Source of the DNA: Lachnospiraceae bacterium
GTDB lineage: Bacteria > Bacillota > Clostridia > Lachnospirales > Lachnospiraceae
Direction of reading: 5' to 3'
Assembly (NCBI GenBank): GCA_021771695.1
Contig: JAETON010000001.1
Span: 62,001-126,000 of the forward strand
DNA length: 64,000 nt
The notes under the pieces were generated by a model. The model was given only the letters and a program-made list of their open reading frames with translations. It did not search any database and was not told where the DNA came from. Below, in pieces: positions 55,119 through 61,823 of the stretch. Numbering within the stretch: the first letter of the stretch is position 1; each line of letters opens with the position of its first letter. The position numbers and the translations under genes are program-made.

Positions 55119-55526
55119 CTATAAATCCTTCGATTTGAACATCTGAATTTCTTTTTTTAATTGCTCATTCTCTGTTTTTAGCTTTTCAATTTCCTTCAAA
55201 TATTGGTTCTGATGTTTATAAATTTTCTTTCCTTCCATAACTTTTAAACGGCTGACTGAACCATCATCATATTTTCCAATAGAACCAGCAGCATAGGATT
55301 CCCGCCATCTTGCAGCTGCACGCTCTATTCTTTTTGAGCCAAGAATTTTAGGATCAAAATCGGCTTCTGCAAAAATCTGCGTAGGTCCTTTTCCAGACAG
55401 ATACTCTTTCATAAAATACTCTTTAAATTCACTAGTATAAATAATACGATTATTATCTACCTGTAGGACGAAAGAATTTTTCAGCAGTATTTTTATCTCC
55501 TCCTGTGTAAGATTTCCACGCCCCAT
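55119..55526 (-). CDS. IS3-family OrfA-like HTH/coiled-coil protein (orphan; no OrfB seen)
   Basis: YTSEFKEYFMKEYLSGKGPTQIFAEADFDPKILGSKRIERAAARWRESYAAGS followed by a leucine-zipper-like helix resembles OrfA of IS3 elements. Confidence 0.65.
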   Translation of the reverse strand: MGRGNLTQEEIKILLKNSFVLQVDNNRIIYTSEFKEYFMKEYLSGKGPTQIFAEADFDPKILGSKRIERAAARWRESYAAGSIGKYDDGSVSRLKVMEGKKIYKHQNQYLKEIEKLKTENEQLKKEIQMFKSKDL

Positions 55527-55550: not shown

Positions 55551-58500
55551 TTATTTTTCAAATTTTCTCTTTCGTCTCATTCCAATAACAACAGCCAACA
55601 CTCCGCCAGATAAGGCAAAGAAAGAAATCCACAATCCCATTCCTGCATTATCTCCAGTTTTAGGGGTATTTACAGATATTTCCTTATCTGTATCTTTTAA
55701 TTCCTTATTTGTTTTTGACTTCTTATTTGTTCCAGATTCATTATTATCTGGTTTCTTATTATTATCTGTTGCAGTATTTTCTATTTTCTTTTCCTTTACA
55801 GTAACTGTAATAGTCTTTACACAGGAAGCACCTTGACTGTCAGTTACTTTATAAGTTACTTCATAAACACCAGCTTTTGATGTGTCTACATTGCTGTGTA
55901 ATACTTCGATTTTATCTGTAAGGTCGCCATCTTCCTTATCAAAAGCTGTTACATCTTTTAATGGGTCAAATATATCTCCCACAATCAACATCTTATCTGT
56001 TGCAATGATTGATGGAACTTCGTTAATTACACTTGCATTTGAACTAAATGCCCAAGTACCTATAAATTTAACATTGCCTTTGCTATCCGCATTTGTCGCT
56101 TTGGCTTCTTTTTTATCAGCGTCATAGCCTTTAAATGTCCATACGCCGTCAGATACTTTTATTGTTGTTTCATCTGGCTGAATTGCAGTAATCGTTGAAC
56201 CCTCAAAATATTTTTTATTGTCAGTAGGAAGAAGATCTGTAATATTATCAATCAATTCTTTATCCGCAGTTTCGCTCTTAAATTCATAGAGGACATGATA
56301 ACTTTCTTTTTTCGCCACCTGCCACATAAAGTATTTTTCTTTATCAGCTGGGTCTGCCAGTCGTTTTAAATAATAACCTTTATCCACAGCATCCTTATTC
56401 CCTAATACGAAGGTATCTTGTATTGGTGTTGATTTATCTGCTGTAAAACCAGTAATGTAATTATCACCTAAAGTCGGATTTTGTAACTGTTTCCAATCAT
56501 CAACCTTCACTGTGTTAACAGTTGTTTTTTCTGTTGCCAGACCATCAATATTGAGTGCAATGGTTCCTCCATTATCTGTACCATCATAGTTCTCACCTTT
56601 GGCAACAGCAGGCACTCTTAGTAATGAATTGCCACCTTTCCAATTTCCTGAAACATTAACAGGACACATAAATACTAAATCACTCTTATCTAGTTCTACG
56701 TTTCCATAAAATTTCCCGGTATATCCGGATTTCAAAGCAACGAATTCATCATTCTTACTTAAAAAGGCAGTGTGAGCAGTTAGATTATTATCGTTTCTAT
56801 GCTTGTAACCAATAGCAAAATAGTTGTTAAAGAAAATGTGGCCATTCTGGCTTTCCATCTTTTCATCGACATACACATAGCCTAGTGCAGTCCATGTACC
56901 GTCGTCAATCTTTACTGAATCTTGGACATTTGTACTAGAATCACGTGTAGTCAATCCACAATCCTTGCTAATTTCCAGATCTTTGACGGTATAGAATGGT
57001 TTTTGCACACTTTCAAACTGAGAAAAATTCTCTGAATCCACTAAAACTTGTGCATTATTTTGCAATATTATCTTGCCAAAACGATATAAATACCCTGTCT
57101 TTTGCGGCGCATCTTTTGTTCCGCATCCATCGTAAATCGCCAGACTTTTTTCTGCCATATTAGCATCAATATGCTTTTTGTTACCCTGCACTTGTGCAAT
57201 ATTGGTGTTCGCACTGATACGAACAGTCGCTATACCGTCAATGGTACAATATCCAAAAGATTCATTATCCAAAACAACAAAATCCATATCACCGTGTTGA
57301 GCTTCAATCAAAACATTGCCATTAATCATAGTTGGAATATCATCCTTACTCCCTGCATTGACTCCATCCGAGTTGTCAGACGGCTTATAAGAAATGTGCA
57401 GCGCATACTGCTCTTTGCTCTCGTTCAAAATCTCAACCGGGCCATAATCATCACCCATATAAGGATAATTGTCATCGCCACCGCCATACACACGATCATT
57501 TGATAAGTCAGCACCATCTACAACGATGCGCACAGTTCCACGGACCGTATCGCGATAACCGCAGCCAAAATAACTACGAGAAGTATGCTTTTTATCGCTC
57601 CACGCACCGTCTAGCATCTGGAAATTAACATTTCCAACTGTAGAATGCCAAGAACCACCATATGCGAACATTGCCGTACCAAACTCTATAGTGTGAGCGG
57701 GGGCACCATCATAACCAACGATTACATTTGCCGTTCCTGCTACACTTGCAGGCTCACGAGCGCCCTCAGCGTTATCTTTAGAATACTCATTCATTCCACC
57801 ACCAAACAAAAATGCATTAACACCTTTTCTGAGGGATACATTAGTATTGCCACTGACCTTGCCATTTCTTGTACTTTTCGCATGACCGCCGCCATATACA
57901 TTGCCGGCAAGAACATTAGTTCCATCGACCAGAACAGTCGTATCTCCGTTGACATTGCCATCAAAACCGCCGCCATATACATTGCTTACTGAAATGTTTC
58001 CTCTTAAAATGATATTAGTATCACCCTTTACATCTGTTTGGTTGCCTCCGCCGTAAATCGTACCAACTTTGCCCCCGCCAAAATTTTCTGTCGTTTCAAA
58101 TTTATAACCATTGGCATAGATGAGTTCATCATTCTTGGGCAGCTTTATATTATCCATCGTAACGTCACCCTGAAGCACAGATTCACCATCCACATTCAAA
58201 GTGAAGTCGTTGTTTTCTGTGCTTTTTATGGTAACATGTTTTCCTGAAATCCCGATAGGACTCTTCCACTTAATGTTGTCTTTCCCCAAAATAATCGTTA
58301 CGTCTGTTGTGGCACTCTCCTCTTTAATCGCATCCAGCGTGCTATTTAAGTCAGCATCTGAAAACACCTCCCAGGTGTTTTTATCTGTGGACAAAGCATC
58401 TGCATTTTCATTGACAGGATGAGTTTCCGCTGTCTGCTCGGTTGCAGCTTCCTGTTCGATTCCTGTTACTTTCTCCTTTATGGTTTCTTCTTTACTCTCA

Positions 58501-58802
58501 TCACCAGCTCTATAGTACACTTTAAAATTATATATACCGTTTTCTGTCACACTGTATGTGACGGTTTCAAGGTTCTCCGTGACTTCTTTGCCATCCGGTA
58601 ATTTTATTTTTTCCGGCAATACATTCTCTTGTTCCTTCAAGGTTAAAGTAATGCTACTCTGTGTCTTATCTTTTCTTATGTCTTGGCAGATTTTATATTG
58701 CAACCGTGATGTACCATTTTCCTCCGCAAACACTGTAGGAAATGAGCATAACGAAAATACCAGTACCGTCACTAGAAGAAAAGACATGATTTTTTTCCTC
58801 AT
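55551..58802 (-). CDS. Large sortase-type surface protein: signal peptide, YGGG beta-solenoid repeats, SHIRT-like domain, Ig-like (DUF5011) domain, PKTG anchor
   Basis: MRKKIMSFLLVTVLVFSLCSFPTVFA signal; NTPKTGD-TM-RRKRKFEK C-terminus; repeated (V/I)YGGG..GDT motifs; FKSETADKELIDNITDLLPTDNKKYFEGSTITAIQPDETTIKVSDGVWTFKGYDADKKEA resembles SHIRT. Confidence 0.88.
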   Translation of the reverse strand: MRKKIMSFLLVTVLVFSLCSFPTVFAEENGTSRLQYKICQDIRKDKTQSSITLTLKEQENVLPEKIKLPDGKEVTENLETVTYSVTENGIYNFKVYYRAGDESKEETIKEKVTGIEQEAATEQTAETHPVNENADALSTDKNTWEVFSDADLNSTLDAIKEESATTDVTIILGKDNIKWKSPIGISGKHVTIKSTENNDFTLNVDGESVLQGDVTMDNIKLPKNDELIYANGYKFETTENFGGGKVGTIYGGGNQTDVKGDTNIILRGNISVSNVYGGGFDGNVNGDTTVLVDGTNVLAGNVYGGGHAKSTRNGKVSGNTNVSLRKGVNAFLFGGGMNEYSKDNAEGAREPASVAGTANVIVGYDGAPAHTIEFGTAMFAYGGSWHSTVGNVNFQMLDGAWSDKKHTSRSYFGCGYRDTVRGTVRIVVDGADLSNDRVYGGGDDNYPYMGDDYGPVEILNESKEQYALHISYKPSDNSDGVNAGSKDDIPTMINGNVLIEAQHGDMDFVVLDNESFGYCTIDGIATVRISANTNIAQVQGNKKHIDANMAEKSLAIYDGCGTKDAPQKTGYLYRFGKIILQNNAQVLVDSENFSQFESVQKPFYTVKDLEISKDCGLTTRDSSTNVQDSVKIDDGTWTALGYVYVDEKMESQNGHIFFNNYFAIGYKHRNDNNLTAHTAFLSKNDEFVALKSGYTGKFYGNVELDKSDLVFMCPVNVSGNWKGGNSLLRVPAVAKGENYDGTDNGGTIALNIDGLATEKTTVNTVKVDDWKQLQNPTLGDNYITGFTADKSTPIQDTFVLGNKDAVDKGYYLKRLADPADKEKYFMWQVAKKESYHVLYEFKSETADKELIDNITDLLPTDNKKYFEGSTITAIQPDETTIKVSDGVWTFKGYDADKKEAKATNADSKGNVKFIGTWAFSSNASVINEVPSIIATDKMLIVGDIFDPLKDVTAFDKEDGDLTDKIEVLHSNVDTSKAGVYEVTYKVTDSQGASCVKTITVTVKEKKIENTATDNNKKPDNNESGTNKKSKTNKELKDTDKEISVNTPKTGDNAGMGLWISFFALSGGVLAVVIGMRRKRKFEK
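55800..56005 (-). repeat. Ig-like/DUF5011 module, copy 1 of 3
   Basis: VGDIFDPLKDVTAFDKEDGDLTDKIEVLHSNVDTSKAGVYEVTYKVTDSQGASCVKTITVTV; near-identical DNA recurs at about 59070 and about 59320. Confidence 0.85.
58470..58802 (-). repeat. Paralogous N-terminal module (shared with 60670-61010)
   Basis: LQYKICQDIRKDKTQSSITLTLKEQENVLPEKIKLPDGKEVTENLETVTY.. closely matches LQYEICQDMRKDRTQSSITLTLKKQENVLLEKVKLPDGKEVTENLETITY.. Confidence 0.85.
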
Positions 58803-58844: not shown

Positions 58845-61010
58845 TTATCCTCTTTTTCTTCTTCTAAACACTGTCAAAACAGACGTCATACATCCAGAAA
58901 TAACGACAAGTCCAATCCACAATACCATATCTACATTATCACCAGTTTTTGGATTATCCGTTGACGTCCTTTTAACAGTATTCGTTGGTTTTTTATTGGT
59001 ATCCGTTCCATTAGTATTTGGTTTTTTGTTATCATCAGTAGCCGGATTATTTATTTTCTTTTCCTTTACAGTAACCATAATCGTCTTTGTACAGGAAGCA
59101 CCCTGACCGTCAGTTACCTTATAGGTCACTTCATAAACACCAGCTTTTGATGTGTCTACATTGCTGTGTAATACTTCGACTTTATCTGTAAGGTTGCCAT
59201 CTTCCTTATCAGAAGCTGTTACATCCTTCAATGGGTCAAATGTATCTCCCACAGTCAACGTCTTATCTGTTGCACTGATTAATGGAACTTCGTTCAGTGT
59301 TTCCATCTTTGGATTGACAATGACCGCAATTGTCTTTGTGCAGCAAGCACCTTGACTGTCAGTTACTTTATAGGTCACTTCATAAACACCAGCTTTTGAA
59401 GTATTCACATTGCTATTTAATACTTCAATCTTATCTGTAAGATTACCATCTTCCTTATCAGAAGCTGTTACATCTTTCAATGGGTCAAATGTATCTCCCA
59501 CAGTCAACGTCTTATCCTCTGCAAGGATAACTGGTATTTCATTATTGCTAAAGCCTATTTTTAAATCTTCTCCTTCTATTTTAGGAATCGAAAACTTTAT
59601 ACTTGACGCTTTAGCGACTCCATCAATATATCCAGTCATCAACAGGTTGTCTCCTGTACGAGCTAGTTCTTGCGCAGTTTGTTTTGATATGGTAAAGTTA
59701 CTTGAATCGCCCTGAGTCAAATACATAGGTTCTAATACTATTTGAGATGTTGTTTGAATACGATCATGTGTTCTTAGTTTTACACGTAGGATAAAATTAT
59801 TCTTACCCTTACTTGCAAATGAGAATGTTGAAGTTGGATTTCCGGTTTCAACACTATTTGAAACATCTGCTATTAAATTATAATCTTCATCCAAGATGTA
59901 TAGGGGCTCAAATGAATAGCTTGTAAAACTCCAATTCTTTAATTCATCAGCAACTTTCACACGTGAATCTATATTTATATGCAAATCAACATGACTATAA
60001 GATGCCCCTTTTTTTGTTCCATCATCCATAATTCCACTATTTGTTAAAACGCCACCGGGATTCAAATAAGTTAAATGGCCTAGCGCTTTTTGATTAAATT
60101 CAAAATTAGTAGACAAATTCAGCTGATAATTGTCCTTTGATTCATCAAAATAGACAATTGCTGATTTATCACTGCCATTAATGTCAAATCCTGAATTTTC
60201 CTTGATATTACCATCAATTGTGTCTGCTGCCGACATATCTGGGTTAATTGTAATTGTTCCAGTCGCACTAGACATATTAATTACTCCAACATATATCGCA
60301 TATAGTTTAATTGGCCCAGAAGTACTTTCATATGTAACATCTGAAACTTTTTGGGTTGAGTAATACAATTGAGCACTATCATCGGTCAGATAACTCTTTG
60401 ATGTCGACCAGCCGATAAAATATTTTTTTGAAAGGAATGTTCCTGTAGCATACAATCCGCAATTTCCCAACTCTTCGTTAGGATCATTAAATGTTTTGTC
60501 TATGATTCCTTGGTTGCCATCAGTTGTATCAAACTGTATGACTTGATTATACATATTTTGCTTTAAATCATCAGAATTATCATCTGTGTTCAGTGAAAAT
60601 CCCTTGTTCCCCTTATCAGCTTTTTCGTCTTGAGACGTCTCTGTTTTGCTTTCCTCTTTCTCCCCGATTTCCGTTACTTCTGCCTGTATGGTTTCTTCCT
60701 TGCTTTCACCATTAACACAATAACACACCTTGAAATTATATGTACCATTTTTTGACACTCTGTATGTAATAGTCTCAAGATTCTCCGTGACTTCTTTTCC
60801 ATCCGGCAATTTTACCTTTTCCAGCAATACATTCTCTTGTTTCTTCAAGGTTAAAGTAATGCTACTCTGTGTCCTATCTTTTCTCATGTCTTGGCAAATT
60901 TCATATTGCAACTGTGATATATCATTTTCCTCCGCAAACACTGTGGGGATTTGTAATAATGAAAACACCAAAAGTAACACAAAAAAAAACGGCATGACTC
61001 TTTTTCTCAT
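58845..61010 (-). CDS. Paralogous sortase-type surface protein with two Ig-like (DUF5011) domains and PKTG anchor
   Basis: MRKRVMPFFFVLLLVFSLLQIPTVFA signal; two TVGDTFDPLKDVTASDKEDGNLTDK modules; DNPKTGD-TM-RRRKRG C-terminus. SD AAAGGAG upstream of the ATG at 61010. Confidence 0.88.
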   Translation of the reverse strand: MRKRVMPFFFVLLLVFSLLQIPTVFAEENDISQLQYEICQDMRKDRTQSSITLTLKKQENVLLEKVKLPDGKEVTENLETITYRVSKNGTYNFKVCYCVNGESKEETIQAEVTEIGEKEESKTETSQDEKADKGNKGFSLNTDDNSDDLKQNMYNQVIQFDTTDGNQGIIDKTFNDPNEELGNCGLYATGTFLSKKYFIGWSTSKSYLTDDSAQLYYSTQKVSDVTYESTSGPIKLYAIYVGVINMSSATGTITINPDMSAADTIDGNIKENSGFDINGSDKSAIVYFDESKDNYQLNLSTNFEFNQKALGHLTYLNPGGVLTNSGIMDDGTKKGASYSHVDLHINIDSRVKVADELKNWSFTSYSFEPLYILDEDYNLIADVSNSVETGNPTSTFSFASKGKNNFILRVKLRTHDRIQTTSQIVLEPMYLTQGDSSNFTISKQTAQELARTGDNLLMTGYIDGVAKASSIKFSIPKIEGEDLKIGFSNNEIPVILAEDKTLTVGDTFDPLKDVTASDKEDGNLTDKIEVLNSNVNTSKAGVYEVTYKVTDSQGACCTKTIAVIVNPKMETLNEVPLISATDKTLTVGDTFDPLKDVTASDKEDGNLTDKVEVLHSNVDTSKAGVYEVTYKVTDGQGASCTKTIMVTVKEKKINNPATDDNKKPNTNGTDTNKKPTNTVKRTSTDNPKTGDNVDMVLWIGLVVISGCMTSVLTVFRRRKRG
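59068..59275 (-). repeat. Ig-like/DUF5011 module, copy 2 of 3
   Basis: TLTVGDTFDPLKDVTASDKEDGNLTDKVEVLHSNVDTSKAGVYEVTYKVTDGQGASCTKTIMVTV. Confidence 0.85.
59318..59520 (-). repeat. Ig-like/DUF5011 module, copy 3 of 3
   Basis: TLTVGDTFDPLKDVTASDKEDGNLTDKIEVLNSNVNTSKAGVYEVTYKVTDSQGACCTKTIAVIV. Confidence 0.85.
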
Positions 61011-61062
61011 CTTTGTTTTCTCCTTTACTATCATCATTTTTTGATAGTGCATCATCACAGGC

Positions 61063-61087
61063 GTGAGGAAAAGCAGACTTTTTCTCC
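61063..61087. repeat. Direct repeat A (5' UTR of surface gene)
   Basis: GTGAGGAAAAGCAGACTTTTTCTCC; partner at 61167-61192. Confidence 0.6.
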
Positions 61088-61166
61088 GTATCGTTGTATA
61101 CTAGATATGGTAGTGTATTTATACTTTTTCAAAGTGAAATCGTTAAAATCATAGGCATTTTTGACT

Positions 61167-61192
61167 GTGAGGAAAAGTCTACCTTTTTTCCC
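61167..61192. repeat. Direct repeat B (overlaps recombinase stop codon)
   Basis: GTGAGGAAAAGTCTACCTTTTTTCCC; first 11 nt identical to repeat A, similar T-rich end. Confidence 0.6.
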
Positions 61193-61823
61193 ATTTTGAT
61201 ATATTGGACTTATTTGCAAAACTAAATTCCACCCCTAAATCATCTGCCCATGAAGAAAACGTGTGATGGCTGACCCCTGCTCTACGGGAAGCCTCTCTTA
61301 AGCTGATTTTCCCTTCTTTCCATAAATTATAGATGACATCAAAATCCTTTGGCTTCTTCTTTTTAGGTCGTCCGAATCGAATCCCTTTTTCTTTTGCAAT
61401 CTTGATTCCCTCTGCCTGTCTTTGTTTGATATTCTCTCTTTCGATTTGCGCAACATAAGAAAGAATCTGTAATACCAAATCCGCAATAAACTTTCCCGTA
61501 ATACCATTGACCTGCTTTCGTGTATCAAGCAAGGGAAAATCCAGTACAATTAAATCAATATTTTTTACCCTTGTCAGATAACGCCATTGTTCTATAATTT
61601 CTTCATAATCACGTCCCAGCCGGTCAATGGACTTGATATAAAGCTCATCTCCAGCCCTGATAATTTTAATTAATTTCTGGTAATTTTTACGGTTGAAATC
61701 TTTTCCCGATTGTTTATCAATAAACATCTGCCTTGAACACAGCCCAATATGCTGCATTGCTTCTACTTGCCTTGCAACATTCTGATCTTTACTGGACACT
61801 CTGATATACGCATATTTCTTCAT
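61179..61823 (-). CDS. Serine recombinase (small resolvase/invertase family)
   Basis: YAYIRVSSKDQNVARQVEAM, IKSIDRLGRDYEEI, ERENIKQRQAEGIKIAKEKGIRFGRPK and C-terminal HTH (KISLREASRRAGVSHHTFSSWADD). Confidence 0.94.
   Translation of the reverse strand: MKKYAYIRVSSKDQNVARQVEAMQHIGLCSRQMFIDKQSGKDFNRKNYQKLIKIIRAGDELYIKSIDRLGRDYEEIIEQWRYLTRVKNIDLIVLDFPLLDTRKQVNGITGKFIADLVLQILSYVAQIERENIKQRQAEGIKIAKEKGIRFGRPKKKKPKDFDVIYNLWKEGKISLREASRRAGVSHHTFSSWADDLGVEFSFANKSNISKWEKR

Follow-up and report, generated by a model that had tools for sequence, protein, structure and literature searches.

A candidate invertible-promoter switch between a small serine recombinase gene and a surface operon in a Lachnospiraceae bacterium

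Two short, similar repeats lie between a serine recombinase gene and a surface operon in this Lachnospiraceae genome, which raises the question of whether they are recombination sites and, if so, what recombination between them would do to the operon. We addressed this in a window of 64,000 nucleotides, the whole stretch of DNA analyzed here, to which all coordinates refer unless otherwise indicated. We put at roughly 0.88 the probability that the repeats serve as the pair of crossover sites in a phase-variation switch with an invertible promoter, in which inversion of a 104-bp segment would turn the surface operon ON or OFF. This reading is drawn from four features of the sequence: site geometry, conservation across a recombinase family, flipped homologues, and the spacing of a -10 box.

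The two copies were found where the preliminary description of this locus had placed them, at 61063-61088 (GTGAGGAAAAGCAGACTTTTTCTCCG) and 61167-61192 (GTGAGGAAAAGTCTACCTTTTTTCCC), with 78 bp between them. A degenerate 26-mer pattern, allowing up to three mismatches, matched these two copies alone in the window (0.00 expected from shuffled sequences), and none of 150 local shuffles gave a pair with at least 20 of 25 matching positions. The repeats are thus real and beyond chance, while the 11-mer that they share is by itself unremarkable (2.08 occurrences expected in the window with one mismatch). Read along the minus strand, on which all genes here are coded, the recombinase comes first, followed by the left site, the segment, the right site and the surface gene. 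The left site (61167..61192, minus strand; GGGAAAAAAGGT-AG-ACTTTTCCTCAC, core AG at 61180-61179) overlaps the 3' end of the recombinase gene, the stop codon of which (TAG, 61181-61179) consists of the core AG and the preceding T. The right site (61063..61088, minus strand; CGGAGAAAAAGT-CT-GCTTTTCCTCAC, core CT at 61076-61075) lies in the leader of surface gene 1, and is followed by the leader end and start codon of that gene (61008..61062, minus strand), with an RBS-like AAAGGAG at ~61026-61020 and a probable ATG at 61010-61008. The overlap of one copy with the recombinase stop codon and the position of the other in the next gene's leader therefore stand as first reported. Within each 26-bp copy the two halves form an imperfect palindrome (8 of 13 pairs), a dyad symmetry that had been missed; the "identical 11-bp start" that had been noted instead is present, and reflects dyad-symmetric half-sites, not functional direct repeats.

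The adjacent gene (61179..61823, minus strand) encodes a small serine recombinase of 214 amino acids, the predicted invertase of both sites. It has a Resolvase N-terminal catalytic domain (PF00239, E=3.9e-28) with the serine nucleophile, Ser10 and the RLGR motif aligning with Sin and gamma-delta resolvase, and a C-terminal helix-turn-helix that was judged by eye alone. By sequence, its closest solved relatives are Sin (E=1.1e-31) and gamma-delta resolvase (E=5.8e-22). The earlier proposal that the repeats are candidate recombination sites of this enzyme is supported: both are very probably its sites.

The preliminary description also took the repeats as direct, with the recombinase deleting, or integrating at, the 104-bp leader, and identity over the 26-mers is indeed slightly higher in the direct sense (20/26) than in the inverted sense (18/26). 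However, the central 8 bp of the two copies agree in the inverted sense only (GGTAGACT vs AGCAGACT), and the asymmetric centre dinucleotides, AG and CT, mismatch in the direct sense, so that the pair is inverted at the likely position of strand exchange. Given that AG and CT are one dinucleotide on opposite strands, religation would invert the segment rather than delete it. In Hin, ligation requires paired core bases (PMC3798978, PMC4513852), and core mispairing blocks ligation in the recombinant configuration (PMC4513852); by this rule, the inverted AG/CT cores support inversion, not deletion. The locus thus combines inverted repeats around a short intergenic segment, as in invertons (inverted at the core, 18/26, and enriched family-wide), with two 26-bp dyad sites that have matching 2-bp cores in inverted orientation, as in Hin-type systems.

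The same anatomy was found in about 50 relatives, mostly Lachnospiraceae, and in a second cassette of this genome: a first site that coincides with the recombinase stop codon or directly follows it, a short segment, an inverted second site and a target gene. We scanned the regions downstream of 145 recombinase genes for site pairs, and counted cores, with no orientation assumed, in 133 distinct recombinase loci. Of the 133 loci, 21 had convergent AG/CT cores (shuffled mean 0.15) and 3 had direct ones, while cores of the GT/AC class (GTGTAC/GTACAC) were inverted in 28 (shuffled mean ≤0.05) and direct in 1. Core class changed 7 times on the recombinase phylogeny, compared to 23.5 times when shuffled; it therefore tracks the recombinase tree, and this ties every recombinase to the sites beside it. 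Many family members have more perfect sites than the window, where the pair score of 27.5 lies above the shuffled 99% level (25.1) and below the shuffled maximum (28.5). Among more distant recombinase relatives, about half had no recognisable site pair behind the gene, and a pattern search of 397 family genomes, for which the pattern was too strict, matched four, one alone having real switches. Sites overlapped the stop codon in seven loci (the window, L005, L010, L154, L173, L155 and L142). Behind the recombinase of L010 (Hespellia stercorisuis), a third core in direct orientation was present besides the inverted pair, and more complex rearrangements may be possible there.

Core-to-core distances clustered at ~94, 105, 115 and 125 bp and upward, with a period of ~10.4 bp and a phase near 0 (Rayleigh P=1.7e-7, 53 loci; jitter control 0/5000, and 0.002 for the AG/CT class alone); these phasing statistics, like the spacer statistics given below, use related loci, and nominal P values overstate significance. 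The predicted invertible segment of the window (61075..61180), delimited on the basis of the inverted site pair, flipped homologues and spacing phase, measures 104 bp from centre to centre, or ~9.9 helical turns. Such helical spacing fits a synapse in which both sites face the same side of a short DNA stretch. The segment was also sought in viral contigs and plasmids, with no match.

Both orientations of the segment were found between species in four homologous pairs elsewhere in the family. In the actinomycetotal pair L046/L037, the segment was 94% identical when flipped and 38% when direct, between co-linear flanks (95% identical upstream and 92% downstream). The corresponding values were 70% vs 33% for L070/L043 and 69% vs 40% for L043/L047. 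The genus mates L105/L106, of the AG/CT class, aligned with a score of 31.5 flipped vs 12.5 direct and shared, when flipped, a 21-base exact match beginning at the core; their overall identities (63% vs 60%) are less decisive, so that this pair gives weaker support. While flipped alleles exist, the relatives included no recognisable allele reduced to a single site by deletion. Together with the near absence of direct core pairs (3 and 1 vs 21 and 28 inverted), this makes deletion or integration between direct repeats barely credible. In a further locus, L107 (G006:C27), the outer half of the right site appears to have been lost along with the start of the target gene, the deletion beginning at the crossover core, and the recombinase frame contained a stop; L107 has the look of a switch locked in one state, possibly through abortive recombination.

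The predicted invertible segment appears to carry only part of a promoter. Over 31 AG/CT loci, the mean -10 score peaked at a spacer of 17 inward of the core hexamer (7.81 vs ~4.4 elsewhere, z=5.8), the hexamer at this peak being TAGAC(T/A) or CAGAC(T/A), and the -10 box usually lay on one side alone. Given this -10 box at a 17-bp spacer, the crossover core seems to double as the -35 box. Against this, TAGACT and CAGACT are 4/6 or weaker as -35 boxes, and a standard promoter scan detected no promoter in the leader or in either cassette. On the plus strand of the window, the predicted promoter of the present OFF orientation (61074..61102), CAGACT-TTTTCTCCGTATCGTTG-TATACT, has its -35 CAGACT (61074-61079) in the core and, after a 17-bp spacer, its -10 TATACT at 61097-61102, and points towards the recombinase. 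In silico inversion turned it into TAGACT-TTTTCTCCGTATCGTTG-TATACT, which points into the surface operon, and made the surface-gene-side site a perfect palindrome with 11-bp arms, GTGAGGAAAAG-TCTG-CTTTTCCTCAC. A perfect right-site palindrome in the ON state was rejected as a family rule, given that the right site of L102 is, by eye, near-perfect in the OFF state. By the rule of core plus 17 bp, most sequenced AG/CT loci are OFF, while L173, L017, L155, L160 and L053 are ON.

We also considered whether the sites could be inverted crossover sites with no core-linked promoter, so that inversion would move a terminator or leader structure while the operon promoter lies elsewhere. This alternative is unlikely. 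The -35 box is indeed weak, and the segment also contains TTAACG-17-TATAAA, which faces the surface gene as the segment now lies. However, the -10 enrichment at spacer 17 is strong and specific, covers 31 loci and normally falls on one side, and little room is left for another promoter between the recombinase stop and the gene.

It is very improbable that the dyads act as RNA hairpins, as terminators or attenuators of the recombinase and surface operon. The palindromes do sit where a gene ends and within a leader, and in the second cassette the left site is scored, on one strand, as a terminator. Nevertheless, the present copies folded as RNA showed no extra stability over shuffles (z -0.05 and -1.09), and a standard terminator scan found none in the window and one terminator-like dyad in the second cassette. 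Hairpins would also leave unexplained the conservation of inverted asymmetric cores, the flipped homologues and the helical spacing.

For the invertible-promoter switch, we envisage that a dimer of the adjacent recombinase would bind each 26-bp dyad-symmetric site and cut around the central dinucleotide, and that religation would then invert the 104-bp segment. With the -10 box near one segment end and the crossover core itself (TAGACT/CAGACT) as the -35 box, inversion would switch the promoter between facing the surface operon (ON) and facing the recombinase (OFF). The orientation sequenced here would be OFF, and its inversion would direct TAGACT-17-TATACT into the operon, with predicted junctions TAGACTTTTTCTCCGTATCG at the left site and GACTGTGAGGAAAAGTCTGC at the right site. 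Since the stop codon is made of the core and the preceding T, the recombinase protein would be unchanged by inversion. Recombinase binding and catalysis, promoter activity and switching in this strain are what we infer from the features above, and the earlier suggestion that the repeats bracket the surface-operon promoter, so that recombination would toggle the operon, is supported.

The putative target, surface gene 1 (58845..61010, or up to 61058, minus strand), encodes a signal peptide, Ig-like domains (PF16403 and PF07523) and a C-terminal sorting-type tail (NPKTG, a hydrophobic stretch and RRRKR). Surface gene 2 (55551..58802, minus strand), presumably in the same operon, has SHIRT and Ig-like domains and a TPKTG sorting-type tail. 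The N-terminal ~110 residues of the two proteins, comprising the signal peptide and first domain, are similar before the sequences diverge, which suggests duplication or domain shuffling. The cassette ends with an HTH_Tnp_2-domain gene (55119..55526, minus strand; PF20310, E=3.3e-11; 63% identical to L005:8060-8443). A protein of this type, of 135-139 amino acids, closes both cassettes of the genome (in the second, L005:8060-8479, plus strand) and was found in none of the other relative loci examined; it is possibly a cassette-specific regulator.

A search of the genome (2.85 Mb) for further copies of the repeat, as had been proposed, found one more, in the second cassette, beside another member of this recombinase family (~76% identical) on contig C39. 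The layout there is the same: the left site overlaps the stop codon, 106 bp separate the AG and CT cores, a sortase-type surface gene follows, and the HTH_Tnp_2 gene closes the cassette. This cassette bears on whether the window holds a degenerate remnant, a former invertible promoter fixed OFF by site drift. The imperfect sites (8 palindromic pairs each), a recombinase C-terminus that runs past the conserved part, and the homologous switch L107 without the outer half of its right site would be consistent with such locking. We consider it improbable, given that the recombinase frame is intact, with no stops and with conserved catalytic residues, and that each of the two cassettes retains both cores and the 17-bp spacing of the -10 box.

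Compared with known systems, the switch resembles Hin/hix of Salmonella (and Gin, Cin and Pin) in that a serine recombinase gene adjoins two 26-bp dyad-symmetric sites and inversion turns a promoter. Hin, in contrast, inverts ~1 kb in which hin itself and a Fis-bound enhancer lie, whereas the segment here is 104 bp, excludes the recombinase, has hardly any space for an enhancer and places the -35 box in the crossover core. To our knowledge, Fis is not known from Bacillota. The window recombinase is closer in sequence to Sin and gamma-delta resolvase than to Gin; those resolvases, however, resolve directly repeated multi-subsite res sites, whereas we found two single 26-bp sites with inverted cores in place of directly repeated res sites with accessory subsites. 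Mpi and other Bacteroides serine invertases likewise combine a serine recombinase with short invertible promoters placed ahead of surface genes. Mpi serves many loci in trans, unlike the recombinases here, each of which lies directly beside its site, and the NCBIfam Mpi model PRK13413.1 gave the window recombinase 46 bits against a cut-off of 272. The Clostridioides difficile switches (flg, cwpV, cmr and pdcB/pdcC) and inverton group 139 of gut Clostridia are similar in inverting a promoter or leader upstream of surface or c-di-GMP genes in Clostridia. In C. difficile, the switches depend on the tyrosine recombinase RecV. Group 139 is linked to a tyrosine-type family (PMC11892184), and we rejected it on that account as the identity of the window switch. 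The predicted switch belongs to a known kind, the serine-invertase promoter switches, of which it is probably a new form. The literature searched held no description of this recombinase or switch family, the inverton catalogue of Jiang et al. (2019), where a prior description is possible, lying outside that search.

Across the family, the targets are for the most part surface proteins, capsule genes and diguanylate cyclases. Surface proteins of the LPXTG-like or Cna_B type follow the switch in the window, L005, L102, L103 and L013; capsule targets are CpsB/CapC in L131 and a weak Wzy_C match in L159; GGDEF proteins are the targets in L105/L106 and L031, which suggests phase-variable c-di-GMP signalling in Anaerostipes and Longibaculum. 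Further targets are small proteins of unknown function. In L104, L109-L111, L135, L155, L158 and L160, the first gene past the right site encodes a protein of 82-95 amino acids, most of these with a C-x(2-4)-SDLR-type motif, and Pfam gave nothing above the cut-off for the three examined. We tentatively propose, at somewhat short of even odds, that these small serine invertases form a distinct class, widespread in gut Bacillota and present in some Actinomycetota, with miniature segments of ~94-210 bp that span whole helical turns and are too short to hold a Hin-type enhancer. Within the AG/CT subclass, the core would serve as the -35 box, and in several members, this one included, also as part of the recombinase stop codon, so that strand exchange would assemble or disassemble the promoter while the fixed half-site tunes its strength (TAGACT ON, CAGACT OFF).

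Sites this degenerate and palindromic may be called direct repeats by repeat searches, or be missed. The rule of core plus 17 bp, together with helical spacing, could be used to find switches and to read their ON or OFF state from assemblies. If the proposed reading is true, butyrate-producing gut bacteria would carry a compact, recognisable phase-variation module, consisting of a recombinase, a site in or behind its stop codon, a half-promoter of ~100 bp and a surface, capsule or c-di-GMP gene, for which we found no counterpart in the literature searched. It would also offer a testable case of enhancer-free serine-invertase synapsis on very short DNA.
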